Shown here piece by piece: positions 23,092-49,913 of a stretch of DNA of 64,000 nucleotides (positions within the stretch are counted from its first letter, which is position 1; the number at the start of each line of letters is the position of its first letter). Under the pieces are notes generated by a model, which was not told the origin of the DNA, made no database searches, and saw only the letters and a program-made list of their open reading frames with translations. This DNA is from Amedibacillus dolichus DSM 3991 (GTDB lineage: Bacteria > Bacillota_I > Bacilli_A > Erysipelotrichales > Erysipelotrichaceae): positions 62,001-126,000 of the forward strand of contig NZ_DS483476.1 of assembly GCF_000154285.1 (NCBI RefSeq), written 5' to 3'. The position numbers and the translations under genes were made by a program.

Positions 23092-24219
23092 TTACATATT
23101 ATTAAGTTTATCTACCATTTTGTTTTGTGCATTTTGAAACCAATGCCCATAAACATTATTAACCATATCAACTGAATGTCCTAGCCTTTTAGCTATGTCA
23201 AATGCACTAAAGCCTAAATTGATCAATAATGAAACATGAGAATGTCTTAGATCGTGTATACGAATTCGTTTTACATGAGCTTTAGCAATCCATCTATCTT
23301 TTCTTATTTTAATAGTGTCTTGATTTAATGGCTTTTCAAAATGGAAAATATATTTTTGATTATCAAATCCTATTATCTGTTTATCATGCTCAAATAGCTT
23401 GCTCACTGCGTCAAAACATTTATCAGGCATTATTACAGTTCTGTAACTGTTTTGTGTCTTAGGATTTGTTATTCTATGTTTATAGTCAGAGTATGATTTG
23501 TTAATTCTGATAGTTTTTTTATTAAAGTCAATATCATTCCAATTTAGAGCAAGAGCTTCTCCTATTCGTAATCCACACCAATATAAAACATTAAAAAGTG
23601 TTAGATATACTATATCATCTACAACTTCGATAAACTTATAAAATTCTTCCGGCTGCCAAAAATCAACTTCCTTTTTCGATTCATCTATGTTTATAACTTT
23701 TTTAAATGATAGAATATGCATGTTTTTTATATATGATTTTTCATATGCAAAGGCAAGCAAAGATTTTAATTCTTTTTGTATTAATTCTAATGTTGAATTT
23801 TTTAAAACTTCACCATTTTGTTTATTAACGGTTAATAAATCATGTTGATATTTTTCTATTTTTTCTAGTGTTAAATTGGATAATTTTATATTTCCTAGAA
23901 CTGGTAGTATATGTTTTTTGAAACTAAGATCTGTTTGATAAAATGTTCTTTCTCTTATAACTAACTTTTTTTGATCCATGAATTTTATATACAGATCATT
24001 TACAGTCATATTCGAAGATACACCAGTTGTAGACTCCAATAAGAATACGCGTTCCCATTCCTTCGCTTCATCGGCAGTAGCAAATCCACGTTTGTGGTAT
24101 CTCTTTTGGCTTCCGTTTGCATCTATATATGAACCTTCGCATTTATAGGTAATCTTTTTAACTAGCTTATCTTTCCTCTTTTTGCTCTTTACCATTCTTT
24201 CATCTTTTTTAACTGCCAT
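23092..24219 (-). CDS. int: Prophage tyrosine integrase
   Basis: 375 residues: an N-terminal arm-binding domain (YKCEGSYIDANGSQKRYHKRG), a core-binding SAM-like domain, and a C-terminal catalytic domain. The catalytic Arg is in YWCGLRIGEALAL, the HxxR in HDLRHSHVSLL, the second His in LGHSVDMVNNVYGHW, and the tyrosine nucleophile is in VYGH. It integrates and, with an excisionase, excises the phage. It ends next to the candidate attL, as expected. Confidence 0.93.
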   Translation of the reverse strand: MAVKKDERMVKSKKRKDKLVKKITYKCEGSYIDANGSQKRYHKRGFATADEAKEWERVFLLESTTGVSSNMTVNDLYIKFMDQKKLVIRERTFYQTDLSFKKHILPVLGNIKLSNLTLEKIEKYQHDLLTVNKQNGEVLKNSTLELIQKELKSLLAFAYEKSYIKNMHILSFKKVINIDESKKEVDFWQPEEFYKFIEVVDDIVYLTLFNVLYWCGLRIGEALALNWNDIDFNKKTIRINKSYSDYKHRITNPKTQNSYRTVIMPDKCFDAVSKLFEHDKQIIGFDNQKYIFHFEKPLNQDTIKIRKDRWIAKAHVKRIRIHDLRHSHVSLLINLGFSAFDIAKRLGHSVDMVNNVYGHWFQNAQNKMVDKLNNM

Positions 24220-38548: not shown

Positions 38549-38655
38549 TACATGATTAAAGCACTCGTTCTTTGAAAATTGAATAGGGTTCGTGAGATTG
38601 ATAAAAGCATACGGAGGTGGTAGAATATTGTTGAAAGAAGAAGGAGAATATGAGT

Positions 38656-39621
38656 ATGAAAAAATTTTTAACCATTTTTATGGCACTGTTGTTATGTGTC
38701 GGACTTGCAGGGTGTGGGAGTGAGGAAGAAGCAGAGACATCATTTAGGAGTAACGGTAATATTAAAGATGAGTTAGAAGAAGATGGTTGGACTCTTGAAA
38801 TGATAGATAAAAACTTAGTTGAATTAGAAAACGATGAAAATGATGATATTTTTGAATTTAATATTGATGATGAAATTCTTAAATATAATGGTTATATATA
38901 TGATGAAAACGGTTTTACTTACGATACTGGAGAAGTTATCAATGATTTAATTACAGCAGATGCAAAAGATTGTTTAAAGAAGTACGATTTATCAATTGAA
39001 GATATAATTGAATTTATGAAGTGGTATGCGAAAACACAAGTTTTAATGTATCCTACCGAAGATGGTTCAAGTGAAGAAAATAGCGATAATAATGAAAATT
39101 TAACAACTGATAATTCCAATGAAAGCAAACCAACCGGTCAGTCCAGTAATAACAATCAAACAAACAGTAGCCAACAATCTATTTCTCAAGGACAAAGAGA
39201 AGCTTTAAGAAGTGCTAAAAGTTACTTAAACACAAATATGGCATTTTCATATAAAGGGTTATTAGAACAACTTAAACATGAGGGTTTCTCTGATGCAGAT
39301 GCTACTTATGCAGTCAATAATTGTGGTGCAAATTGGAATAATCAAGCGTTAAAATCTGCGCGTAGTTATTTGAACACAAATATGGCATTTTCATACAACG
39401 GCTTAATAGAACAATTGCAAAGCGAAGAATTTACTTATGAAGAAGCTGTATATGGGGTTAATAACTGTGGAGCAGATTGGAATGCACAAGCAATTAAATC
39501 CGCACAAAGTTACATGGATATAGGAATGGGATTTTCTCGTCAAGAACTAATAAATCAACTAATTCACGAGGGATTTACTCAATCACAAGCTGAACAGGCA
39601 GTAAATGCAATTGGACTTTAA
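38656..39621 (+). CDS. Ltp-family lipoprotein (superinfection exclusion)
   Basis: About 321 residues: signal peptide and lipobox (LCVGLAGCGSEE, lipidated Cys about 21), an acidic region, an Asn/Ser-rich linker, then three tandem repeats of about 48 residues (ALRSAKSYLNTNMAFSYKGL, ALKSARSYLNTNMAFSYNGL, AIKSAQSYMDIGMGFSRQEL). This is the Ltp architecture. The TP-J34 homolog sits outside the membrane and blocks DNA entry of related phages. ATG 38656 is well spaced from AAGGAG; 38650 is too close. Confidence 0.85.
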   Translation: MKKFLTIFMALLLCVGLAGCGSEEEAETSFRSNGNIKDELEEDGWTLEMIDKNLVELENDENDDIFEFNIDDEILKYNGYIYDENGFTYDTGEVINDLITADAKDCLKKYDLSIEDIIEFMKWYAKTQVLMYPTEDGSSEENSDNNENLTTDNSNESKPTGQSSNNNQTNSSQQSISQGQREALRSAKSYLNTNMAFSYKGLLEQLKHEGFSDADATYAVNNCGANWNNQALKSARSYLNTNMAFSYNGLIEQLQSEEFTYEEAVYGVNNCGADWNAQAIKSAQSYMDIGMGFSRQELINQLIHEGFTQSQAEQAVNAIGL

Positions 39622-41261: not shown

Positions 41262-41870
41262 ATGATTTATTCATACACTCGAGTATCAACAAACAAACAA
41301 GATTATCTAAGACAAGACGAAGCAATCAAGAAATGGTGCGCAGATAACAACGTGGAGATTGATGTGTCATTTTCCGATACCATTACAGGAAAAACATTTA
41401 ATCGTGATGGGTATAATCGTATGAAACAGGCAGCAGTTAGTGGTGATACAATTATCATAAAAGAGCTTGATCGCTTGGGTCGTGATTGGGACGGAATAAA
41501 AGAAGAGTGGAAATATTTTGATGATAAAGATATTAACATCGTTGTAATTGATATGCCTTTACTTTCACAAGCAATTTATGACAAAGACGGAAATATTGAT
41601 TTGAATATCAAGTTTTTAAAGGCAATCGTATTTGAAACGCTTTGTTACAACGCAGAACTTGAACGCCAAAAGAACAGCAGAAGAACATCGGAAAAGCTGC
41701 AAGCTATGAAAGCGGAGGGCATTAAGCTTGGCAGACCGGTAAATACAGAAGTAGATAAAACAGTTTGTGAATTATACGCACAGGGTATGAATAAGTCAGA
41801 TATTGCCTTTTATGCAGGTGTTTCAAGACCACAAGTATATACCATATTGAAAAGAAATCATTTGATGTAA
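41262..41870 (+). CDS. Serine recombinase (resolvase/invertase family)
   Basis: 202 residues. The N-terminal catalytic domain has Ser in YSYTRVSTNKQ (about Ser9), DTIIIKELDRLGRDWDG, and ELERQKNSRRTSEKL; a C-terminal HTH reads MNKSDIAFYAGVSRPQVY. Cuts and rejoins DNA by a Ser-linked intermediate. Separate from the integrase, so a DNA invertase or resolvase role is likely. AGGAGG precedes the ATG. Confidence 0.88.
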   Translation: MIYSYTRVSTNKQDYLRQDEAIKKWCADNNVEIDVSFSDTITGKTFNRDGYNRMKQAAVSGDTIIIKELDRLGRDWDGIKEEWKYFDDKDINIVVIDMPLLSQAIYDKDGNIDLNIKFLKAIVFETLCYNAELERQKNSRRTSEKLQAMKAEGIKLGRPVNTEVDKTVCELYAQGMNKSDIAFYAGVSRPQVYTILKRNHLM

Positions 41871-45514: not shown

Positions 45515-45523
45515 TGTAGATTG

Positions 45524-45607
45524 AGCATTTGCGATTATATGCAAGTGCTTTTTTTATTACTGTTTCAGTATGGCTTTATTTCAGCGCTTTAGAGCGCTTT
45601 TTTTAGT
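45524..45607 (+). terminator. Tandem terminators ending the cassette
   Basis: AGCATTTGC/GCAAGTGCT with a T-run (45524-45556), then AGCGCT-TTAG-AGCGCT with seven T (45583-45607). Confidence 0.8.
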
Positions 45608-46520
45608 TTCGGTATATAAGAAGCTACGAAAACATGAAATAACGTTTCTAGGTGGGTTAAAATAAGCGATACAAAGGAATAAAGATGAATGATGTAAGCA
45701 TATATTTATATTATTTCTTATTTTTAATTGTATATGATGTATTTTTATGTATTTGTATATATAGATAGTATATAAGATGAAACAACGCTTAGAACGTCTA
45801 AAAAGGGCAGTTATGGAGAGGTAGTACAGTGGTAGTATATTGCTGCTTCTTAGTATATATATGCACTATGTATATGTAGTATGTAATATACTTACTCTTT
45901 TTATTATTTATTATATGTTTATTTATAATATGTATTATATGTAATATGTATATATAATAGTATGGCGCAGTATATTCATGATCTAATAGAATAAGATAGC
46001 ATATATGAGTATGGTTGTGCTGCTAGTGTAGTAGGTAGTATTATATATATCTACTATGTATATTTAATAATCTATATATAATTATTTTTATTCTTTCTTT
46101 TATTTTTATTATGTATTAAGTATTATATATACTATTATTATATAATATACAGGAGAATGAGAGAGGCATGAGGGCAAAGAGGAGAGGAAATAAAAGCAGT
46201 TTTTCGCGCATATATGAAAATAGAATAGTTTCTATATCCGTGATGGTCCTAGTGTATTTAAAAATTGTTCAAAAAATATAGTATGTATATGATAGTGTAA
46301 TAAAAACGAACCTTTTTTTAACACCAAAACCCTTTAAATAAGGCATATATATAACCCCCTCCCTATTTTTTTATCAATATAGCACCTTAGTTACCCCAAT
46401 CTCCCACACGAAGAATTTTTTCAATTTCACTCTTTTGTATTCATTCGAAATAGCCATACTCAAGAATAATCATGCATATTTTAGACTGCATAATTTCCAA
46501 TACAGTGTGGAAAACTTTTA
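45608..46520. other. AT-rich gap without clear genes
   Basis: About 0.9 kb rich in TATATG/GTATAT runs. Two loosely similar stretches start near 45829 and 46025 (GGTAGTATAT-type). A 37-codon ORF (46168-46281, beginning MRAKRRGNKSSFSRIYENRI) has a weak ribosome site. No tRNA cloverleaf could be confirmed. Nothing else supported. Confidence 0.4.
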
Positions 46521-46526
46521 CTTGAC

Positions 46527-46845
46527 TTGTCAACTTGACAAAAAAATAAAATTGGATATAGTATGAAGTTAGCAGATAAAAAAACTGCAACTCATGGCAC
46601 GTTGATACTGAAAGGTTGATGCGTGCTTTTTCTATGTTTGGTTTCGATTACATAATAAAATCGATGTGCGGTCAATAAGCATATTTTCATATTTGTTGTT
46701 CTCCTTTCACTTTCTAAAAATTTTATAAAATCTTTACAGTTTGGTATTGACCGAAAATACAAAAGCAGATGTATCGTACTTATCGCCTTGTTGATACATC
46801 AATTCATTAAATTATTTGTTAGACCTATAGAGGGTCTTTTTTTTT
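46527..46845 (+). promoter_or_regulatory. Late-operon leader: promoter, operator palindrome and terminator
   Basis: TTGTCAA-C-TTGACAA (46527-46541) overlaps the -35 of a promoter TTGACA-N16-TATAGT (46535-46562). The transcript would contain a hairpin TCGATT/AATCGA, a long-range 9-bp stem CGGTCAATA (46669-46677)/TATTGACCG (46745-46753), the stem GATGTATC/GATACATC, and a terminator AGACC/GGTCT with T8 (46821-46845), all before the first late gene. Confidence 0.55.
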
Positions 46846-46863
46846 ATTTCAGGAGGTGGTCTT

Positions 46864-47343: not shown

Positions 47344-48069
47344 ATGGAAGATTTATCAAGTGTCGTTCGAGTTTCAAGAGATGCATTAAGGACTTGTAAT
47401 TTTAACGATATACCAAAGCTGTATAAAGTAGCGAAAGTTATGTACGATGCGATGATACTTCAATATGATTACGCTTATGAAAACAATGATTTAAGACAGC
47501 AATATCGAATATGTCAGTTGATAGATCAAGAAGTTTTACCAAAACTAAAAGAAGCTATTGTACATACCAAAGACTGTAAAAGTGGAAATCGCTTAGCTAC
47601 GAATATAGTGGATTTATTAAAGTTGTTCTTCGCATTATCTGCAAGACGCATCTTAAGGAATTTTGCTTTATATATTGAGCAATATAAACGTAAAAAGGTG
47701 TGGGACAAGACAATGGATACAATGGAGTGTGTGTTTTCGTACGCTGATGAGTTTGCGATATCGGATAATATGAATATTATGCGTACTTCTTGTATGCCCG
47801 GTCTTGGAAAGTCATATTTTGGTAATTTATTTGTAGCTAATGCGCATGGCAATGACCCAAACTTGCAAATATTGCGAATTACATATTCTGATGACTTAGT
47901 TAAGATTACAACGAGACAAACAAAAGCAATTATCAAGTCAAAAGCCTTTGCAGAAATATTCCCTCGCTATCAAAATGTCAAAAATATATTTAAACAAGAA
48001 GATAAGTATTCGTATTGCTTATGTGATTGCGAAGATGAATACAATCTATTCGGTTTTACCCGTGATGGT
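47344..48069 (+). CDS. terL: Terminase large subunit, exon 1
   Basis: Encodes the N-terminal helical region and the ATPase Walker A-like CMPGLGKSYFGNLF (about residues 152-165), up to LFGFTRDG. The open frame itself runs on to 48114, but those last residues are intron. With exon 2 the protein is about 580 residues, a normal TerL, which packages DNA into the capsid using ATP and cuts it. Exact 5' splice point inferred: 48069 or 48073. Confidence 0.8.
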
Positions 48070-48896
48070 CAGTTGGCTCACTGTAGTAGTGATATTACAG
48101 TGAATCCCATCTAATTGCTGGAAACCTAAACCACTATGTGGCATGGCAATCAGCAGCTAAGATTTTGAGAAATTTGTTGGATAACAACCAACCATTTCTC
48201 TTTTATTTTGCGATAAAGGAGGAAATGGAAAATGGAAATTTGGAAAAAAGTGGAAAATTTTAACATGTACGAGATAAGCAATTTAGGAAGATTAAGAAAA
48301 AACTACAAAAAGGGAACAACAAAAATTTTAAAACCTGATGTGATTAACGGAGGCTACCTAAGATACACGCTATCAAAAGAAGGCATAACGTATCGGTTTA
48401 TAGCACATAGAATGGTAGCTAAGCATTTTATACAAAATCCTAACAATTATCCCGACATAAACCATATAGATAATAATAGAACAAACAATAAAGTAGAAAA
48501 TTTAGAATGGTGTACTCCTAAAATGAATGCGGAGCATAGAGAGAAGCAAAACCGAAATCCATCATGTAGAAAGGTATATCAATATGATAAAGATTTAAAT
48601 TTGATAGCAATATACAAATCTACTAGGGAATGCGCAAGAAAAACTAAATATTGTAAAAGTTCTATTCAAGTATGGTGTCAAAATAGGAATATTAAACCTA
48701 AAAATCCATATATTTGGAGTTATTCTCAATTAACAAAATAAAGTTCAACGACTAGGAATTATTCCGTACACCCAAGTGGGTGGAAATGGTGGGTATCTGT
48801 TTTACGACAGATAAAGATATAGTCTGATCTTGTATGAAAGTACAAGCAGTTCTTAAATGAACGGTAGTGTATTAACGACACACTGCGAACAAAGCG
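48070..48896 (+). ncRNA. Group I self-splicing intron in terL
   Basis: Core elements in order: P AATTGCTGGAAACC (48113-48126), Q AATCAGCAGCTAAG (48148-48161), R GTTCAACGACTAGG (48743-48756), S AAGATATAGTC (48814-48824). TGCTG in P pairs with CAGCA in Q (P4); GACTA in R pairs with TAGTC in S (P7). The HNH gene lies between Q and R. Joining TTTACCCGTGATGGT to CAAGCAACGGGTAAG restores the TerL frame and its Walker B region. Splice sites are inferred within a few bases; the alternative junction is 48073/48901. Confidence 0.85.
48232..48741 (+). CDS. HNH homing endonuclease (NUMOD4-HNH) inside the intron
   Basis: 169 residues. NUMOD4 start IWKKVENFNMYEISNLGRLR, HNH core (AHRMVAKHFIQNPNNYPDIN, HIDNNRTNNKVENLEWCTP) and a C-terminal NUMOD1-like DNA-binding part (VYQYDKDLNLIAIYKSTREC). 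Cuts intron-less terL alleles so the intron can copy itself. AAAGGAGGAAA precedes the ATG. It ends 1-2 bases before the R element. Confidence 0.9.
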   Translation: MEIWKKVENFNMYEISNLGRLRKNYKKGTTKILKPDVINGGYLRYTLSKEGITYRFIAHRMVAKHFIQNPNNYPDINHIDNNRTNNKVENLEWCTPKMNAEHREKQNRNPSCRKVYQYDKDLNLIAIYKSTRECARKTKYCKSSIQVWCQNRNIKPKNPYIWSYSQLTK

Positions 48897-49913
48897 CAAG
48901 CAACGGGTAAGCGTGGAAAGATTGTTGTTATTGATGATTTGTTGAAAGGACAAATCGAATGTAATAATGTGCAGCTACACAATCAATTAACACAGCGATA
49001 TTATTCGGATTGGTCATCACGTGCCGATGATGATAAGCAAAAGACGATGCTTTTAGGTACGATGTGGGCAGATACGGATTTACTTAATGTTTTATATGAT
49101 GTGGCGAAATCGAAAGGTTTGAGCGAGGATAAGAAGTATCCTTATGTCGAGATTACAAGTGATCGTTCCGGTTGCTTTATACGAATTCCTGCTCTTGACC
49201 GTAATAATCAATCAACTTGTCATCGAAGATATGCGACAAAGTATTTGCTTGATATAAAGAGAGGAATGACACGCTTTTTGTGGCAAGCTGTTTATCAGCA
49301 GAACCCAATCGCACCGGAAGGTCTTGAGTTTAATTACAATGTACTTCAAACCTACGAAACAAAACCGCTATTTGAGCAAGCGCAATCTCGCTACGCTTCA
49401 CTTGACCCTGCGAGACGTGGTAAAAACTATGTTTCTATGCCGATATGTTACAAAATCGAAGATAAGCATTATCTTGTAGATTTCTTATATCGTAAAAAGG
49501 CGATGAAAGAAATGTACGATGTGATTGTAGATAAGATTATTGAGCATCGCATCAATATCTTGGTGTTAGAAAACAATACCGATACAAGTTTAAAAGAGGT
49601 TTTGGAAGAAAGACTTCGGTTTAAAAACTATCTGCATTGCACCATTATCGAGAAATATTCAACGCAGAACAAAGAGCAACGTATTAAGGACCATCAATCA
49701 GATGTTAGAAATTATATTGTTTTTCCATGTAAAGGAATGTTCTCTTTGAATAGCGATATGGGGTTAGCTATGGAAGAAATAACCGCATATTCTTTTAACT
49801 ACCCTAATAAATTTGATGATGGTATTGATGCGCTTGTTATTTATGCAATGCAGTTTATAGATAGTGGAGTTGAATTCCCCGAGGTTGGCACATTCAAACG
49901 TGGTTACCTTTAA
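48897..49913 (+). CDS. terL: Terminase large subunit, exon 2
   Basis: Begins QATGKRGKIVVIDDLLKG, containing the Walker B-like VVIDD, followed by the motif III-type MLLGTMWAD and the nuclease domain with its aspartates in YASLDPARRG, LVLENNTD and DDGIDALVIY. An open frame with a TTG at 48939 exists, but translation presumably continues from exon 1 after splicing. Confidence 0.85.
   Translation, partial: QATGKRGKIVVIDDLLKGQIECNNVQLHNQLTQRYYSDWSSRADDDKQKTMLLGTMWADTDLLNVLYDVAKSKGLSEDKKYPYVEITSDRSGCFIRIPALDRNNQSTCHRRYATKYLLDIKRGMTRFLWQAVYQQNPIAPEGLEFNYNVLQTYETKPLFEQAQSRYASLDPARRGKNYVSMPICYKIEDKHYLVDFLYRKKAMKEMYDVIVDKIIEHRINILVLENNTDTSLKEVLEERLRFKNYLHCTIIEKYSTQNKEQRIKDHQSDVRNYIVFPCKGMFSLNSDMGLAMEEITAYSFNYPNKFDDGIDALVIYAMQFIDSGVEFPEVGTFKRGYL

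Follow-up and report, generated by a model that had tools for sequence, protein, structure and literature searches.

The terL gene of a prophage in the window (the whole 64,000-nt stretch analysed here, part of contig 3 of a 2.19-Mb bacterial genome) is interrupted by an 827-nt element that is very probably a mobile, self-splicing group IA-type intron equipped with a homing endonuclease gene and a hairpin that limits translation of that gene. The predicted identity, that of a group I intron whose P6 region holds an HNH gene and which lies in terL after Walker A and before Walker B, has support from the exact joining of the exons, from uninterrupted relatives, from covariation of the core with known phage introns, and from the corresponding domain hits of the encoded proteins.

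The terL locus and its prophage

By gene content the prophage spans about 23 kb to past 60 kb of the window. An integrase gene (23092-24219, minus strand) and genes for RecE-/RecT-like proteins are followed by those for the portal, major head, major tail and tape-measure proteins; the portal gene lies directly 3' of terL, and all four of these downstream genes are open. The intron-bearing terL belongs to an integrated tailed-phage prophage. Read from its open frames, terL looks split, which the intron explains: one piece occupies 47344-48114, another is an open frame running to 49913, and a separate ORF (48232-48741) separates the two. The features of the locus, all on the plus strand, are as follows.

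47344-48069, plus strand: terL exon 1 (242 aa), with the P-loop MPGLGKS (Walker A); matches the terminase large subunit families phrog_4758 and phrog_38 and aligns with L002-L005
48070-48896, plus strand: group IA-type self-splicing intron (predicted splicing), 827 nt; from exon joining, contiguous relatives, the RF00028 match and covariation
48073-48078, plus strand: putative internal guide sequence UUGGCU; best P1 plus P10 combination for these splice sites
48079-48102, plus strand: P2 hairpin (CACUGUA/UACAGUG); from the free fold
48106-48111, plus strand: 5' strand of P3, CCCAUC, pairing with GGUGGG at 48788-48793; from the free fold
48113-48123, plus strand: P element (5' strand of P4); from the sequence, and paired with Q in the free fold
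48148-48157, plus strand: Q element AAUCAGCAGC; from the sequence, with an identical element in phage introns L020 and L024
48192-48228, plus strand: hairpin burying the endonuclease Shine-Dalgarno; from the fold of 48180-48245
48232-48741, plus strand: NUMOD4-HNH-NUMOD1 homing endonuclease gene (169 aa), within the P6 region; from Pfam and phrog_59 matches
48743-48754, plus strand: R element GUUCAACGACUA (5' strand of P7 at 48750-48754); from the RF00028 alignment, with P7 invariant in 14 introns
48794-48813, plus strand: P8 hairpin; from pair counts
48814-48824, plus strand: S element AAGAUAUAGUC (3' strand of P7 at 48820-48824); from the RF00028 alignment and pair counts
48829-48886, plus strand: P9, P9.1 and P9.2 hairpins; from pair counts
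48897-49913, plus strand: terL exon 2, with Walker B (KIVVIDD) and an RNase H-like nuclease domain; matches PF22530 (6e-11) and phrog_38 (4.6e-30)

Elsewhere in the prophage, about 1.3 kb just 5' of the packaging genes (45515-46860) is very AT-rich, carries short degenerate tandem repeats and is free of long ORFs, breaking an otherwise dense gene arrangement. The product of 38650-39621 strongly matches phage superinfection-exclusion families (phrog_4980, 5e-50), and a serine-recombinase (Resolvase) gene at 41262-41870 shares the prophage with the tyrosine integrase.

Intron boundaries and exon joining

The 5' exon ends in ...GATGGT, with U at 48069, and the intron ends in ...AAAGCG, with G at 48896; together with restoration of the host protein on joining, these termini are those of a group I intron. 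Since CA is common to the start of the intron and the start of the 3' exon, three registers are possible at the DNA level, of which 48070-48896 alone obeys the U(-1) rule as well as the terminal-G rule. By these rules and the exact exon join, the boundaries that the sequence-only reading had drawn at 48070 and 48896 are correct to the base. Other in-frame U...G pairs exist; 48069/48896 is the only one that yields GQATGKR with no residue gained or lost relative to the relatives. Excision of 48070-48896 produces an in-frame TerL of 580 aa with no stops, so the flanking frames do make up one protein, as that reading had held.

Uninterrupted TerL proteins are encoded by four viral contigs (L002-L005; 58-60% identity) and by two genomes of the same bacterial family (L011 and L012; ~57% identity), the latter pair found by a family-level whole-genome search. 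The alignment with uninterrupted TerL that had been proposed as a check is gap-free at the junction (57-60% identity), where the relatives read TR[E/D]GQ[A/G/S]TGKR, with no residue gained or lost, and the joined exons read TRDGQATGKR. The insertion point falls after the P-loop and before Walker B, as first described. It lies a short way upstream of Walker B, within the motif G|Q-x-T-G-K-R, which in the relatives is contiguous at both the protein and the DNA level (empty site GAAGGT|CAAGCAACTGGG in L002 vs GATGGT|CAAGCAACGGGT in the joined exons of the window). The motif is invariant in L002-L005 except at one position. Two further entries in the viral contig collection (L001 and L006) are evidently the window's own phage again. 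Two TerL scans of the genome contig collection returned no relatives, a tblastn search of phage records with exon 1 gave no matches, and the HNH relatives L007 and L008 gave no TerL match. Searches of viral contigs, genomes and phage records found no second intron at the identical terL site.

The putative guide UUGGCU is complementary, with G.U allowed, to the whole junction GGU|CAA: UUG pairs with CAA of the 3' exon (P10, 3 pairs), while GCU pairs with GGU of the 5' exon to form P1 with a U.G pair at the splice site. Equally good fits arise in 5% of shuffles, so that the match is modest evidence, consistent with P1/P10. The intron is weakest at P1, which has only 3 contiguous pairs; when folded locally, the end of the 5' exon favours an exon-internal hairpin over P1. 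The 11-mer CCGTGATGGTC at the 5' splice site (48060-48070) recurs once in the AT-rich region upstream (46238-46248); this recurrence, noticed post hoc, is probably due to chance, because a 64-kb stretch should contain a few 11-mers more than once.

The ribozyme core and its covariation

All four conserved elements named in the sequence-only reading (P, Q, R and S) are present and pair as it described, with P4 appearing in the free fold and P7 formed by GACTA/TAGTC. An unconstrained fold of the intron freed of its ORF contains P2, P3, P4, P7.1, P7.2, P8, P9, P9.1 and P9.2. The group I core is complete, P3 and P4 coming from the free fold and P7 and P8 from the RF00028 alignment and pair counts. 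The P7.1/P7.2 extension typical of subgroup IA is present, and in an alignment of 14 introns each of the two helices has pairs that change on both sides.

This alignment sets the 3' ribozyme half beside 13 further phage introns, those of Twort, Lactococcus r1t and LL-H terL among them. At the DNA level the 3' core resembles introns of Twort (nrdE), r1t and Staphylococcus, Enterococcus, Bacillus and Clostridioides phages, some of them annotated Intron_gpI, and the 3' half also resembles an intron splitting the thymidylate synthase gene of a Pseudomonas phage. Across helices P7, P7.1, P7.2, P8, P9, P9.1 and P9.2, 90.8% of cells are paired and 25 of the 36 pairs change on both sides. In P8 all 6 pairs do so (98.7% of cells paired), and each of the three hairpins P9, P9.1 and P9.2 also has such changes; P7 never varies and is thus conserved, not covarying. 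The covariation score is 0.541 vs 0.159 +/- 0.018 after shuffling, with none of 500 shuffles as good by any measure; kinship among the introns can inflate this comparison, but the margin is very large. With the partners slid the score is at most 0.127, a contrast somewhat favoured by taking the structure from the window's own row of a plain MAFFT alignment.

A search with the Rfam group I model, put forward with the original reading as a further check, gave a divided answer. In a restricted scan RF00028 matches the 3' core at 38.4 bits (E = 5.8e-8), which is significant yet under the gathering cut-off of 50, and the 5' core separately at 13.6 bits; in a whole-window scan at the gathering cut-off no family passes. 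The score falls short because the 510-nt ORF between Q and R splits the core match, and partial hits of this kind have been reported where an intron loop holds an endonuclease gene (PMC11878797). Formally this is the sub-threshold covariance score that the original reading had named as refuting it, but it is no refutation here, the cut-off being a curation threshold and not a defining biological feature, and Rfam cut-offs can miss introns that carry an endonuclease gene in P6. The element is the sole RF00028 match, and its HNH gene the sole copy, in the 2.19-Mb genome.

The endonuclease gene and its hairpin

The gene described earlier as an intact NUMOD4-HNH gene between Q and R is indeed intact, and its 169-aa product combines an HNH motif with NUMOD DNA-binding motifs in NUMOD4, HNH_3 and NUMOD1 segments (Pfam: NUMOD4 4.5e-9, NUMOD1 7.5e-6 and HNH_3 6e-5, the last slightly below the cut-off). 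The product belongs to phrog_59 (3e-40), its nearest phage relatives sharing ~40% identity, and the same cluster (P59) occurs in group I introns of the Bastillevirinae (PMC11878797).

A Shine-Dalgarno sequence, AAGGAGG (48216-48222), lies 9 nt before the endonuclease ATG and is base-paired within a hairpin. The fold of 48180-48245 reaches -16.1 kcal/mol (z -3.3), a value equalled by 1 of 200 shuffles, and the pairing persists in the fold of the whole intron. Shine-Dalgarno sequences of the T4 intron endonucleases are likewise sequestered in hairpins, and loss of the I-TevI hairpin lowered td splicing (PMC2988022). The hairpin probably limits translation of the endonuclease on the unspliced precursor, a role suggested by its position and by the T4 case.

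Proposed mechanism and alternative explanations

From the structure and the continuity of the exons, we infer that the ribozyme would use a guanosine cofactor to cut after U48069, and that GGU would then be joined to CAAGCA, restoring the Gly-Gln-Ala-Thr-Gly-Lys-Arg codons of TerL. To judge from its family, the NUMOD4-HNH enzyme would cleave or nick terL alleles that lack the intron, either exactly at the exon junction or close to it, the putative target being the intron-free GGTCAAGCAACGGG site, and repair of the cut would copy the intron into that gene. By covering the endonuclease ribosome-binding site, the hairpin may prevent ribosomes from interfering with the folding of the ribozyme, as in T4.

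It is unlikely that the element is a decaying intron, structurally recognisable yet unable to splice, within a prophage that is itself defective, which would leave terL in effect broken. The short P1 and the competing exon hairpin are what such decay might look like, but a decaying insertion should carry damage somewhere, whereas here the core helices pair, the endonuclease ORF is intact, the exons are open with no frameshift, and so are the portal, major head, major tail and tape-measure genes downstream. Nor do we give any real weight to a free-standing HNH gene in terL, or to a terL made as two separate proteins, with no ribozyme splicing involved. The ORF does have its own Shine-Dalgarno and start, and a TTG at 48939 could start the downstream exon; against this, a ribozyme core that covaries with known introns lies on both sides of the ORF, the join is exact to the codon, and both halves would lose the GQxTGKR motif and Walker B.

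A self-splicing intron could, in addition, have been co-opted as a regulatory switch controlling packaging, perhaps one responsive to GTP or growth state, an addition compatible with the mobile intron favoured here and one we regard as improbable. Full-length TerL does need splicing, and an on-switch hypothesis for phage introns has been discussed (PMC11878797), but nothing in the sequence requires it, the uninterrupted relatives manage with no intron, and neither an aptamer nor another RNA family was matched in the whole-window and restricted Rfam scans. It is likewise improbable that intron and endonuclease hairpin together act as a domesticated switch tying terL expression, packaging and lytic outcome to splicing conditions in the lysogen. 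The earlier suggestion that splicing adds a control step to packaging finds no support here and is speculation; a neutral self-splicing parasite accounts for everything seen.

Comparison with known introns

Group I introns in phage terminase genes are already established, and the one described here is a further example at a site that differs from those of LL-H and phiA009. Terminases are among the typical intron targets, since endonuclease sites lie in conserved genes (PMC3984707, a review). The P7.1/P7.2 and P9.1/P9.2 architecture of the present intron matches that of Twort and of a td-like intron; the introns of T4 td and Twort nrdE reside in host genes other than terL. I-TevI is a GIY-YIG enzyme, unlike the NUMOD4-HNH enzyme encoded here. 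In Pseudomonas phage PAP02 (L020 1108-2343), annotated pieces of the RNA polymerase large subunit flank a group I core that has the P, Q, R and S elements, which suggests that an intron there has escaped annotation.

Within terL, Moonbeam carries two group I introns (PMC4299906), and among the Bastillevirinae terL introns that of SIOphi has been shown to splice both in vitro and in vivo, that of phiAGATE in vivo (PMC11878797). Like the present intron, several of those in SIOphi, phiAGATE and Moonbeam contain HNH-class endonuclease genes, although the nucleases of the Bastillevirinae TerL introns, in different phages, also include a VSR-type cluster (P559). The group I intron cited for LL-H terL, with its ORF168 (Mikkonen and Alatossava 1995, cited in PMC4299906), combines the same core type with an HNH-type ORF of nearly equal length (168 vs 169 aa; 38% identity over 98 aa), and the regions from R to P9 align, whereas the TerL sequence itself is very different. 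In Aeromonas phage phiA009 (L025 994-2803) the terminase is annotated as two genes but is apparently a single gene interrupted by a group I intron with a core of the same type, and no endonuclease ORF is annotated in the ~316-nt gap between its halves. With Walker B assigned by eye in both phages, the LL-H intron lies within the motif (after ...IIAVWF) and that of phiA009 at the motif (YSFVGF, then DELTHF), whereas the present intron lies ~14 codons upstream of the Walker B end. The prophage, which has few close relatives in the collections, provides a clean case of a homing intron inserted in TerL at an invariant motif adjoining Walker B. Considered alongside LL-H and phiA009, this case follows the known rule that homing elements insert in the most conserved codons.
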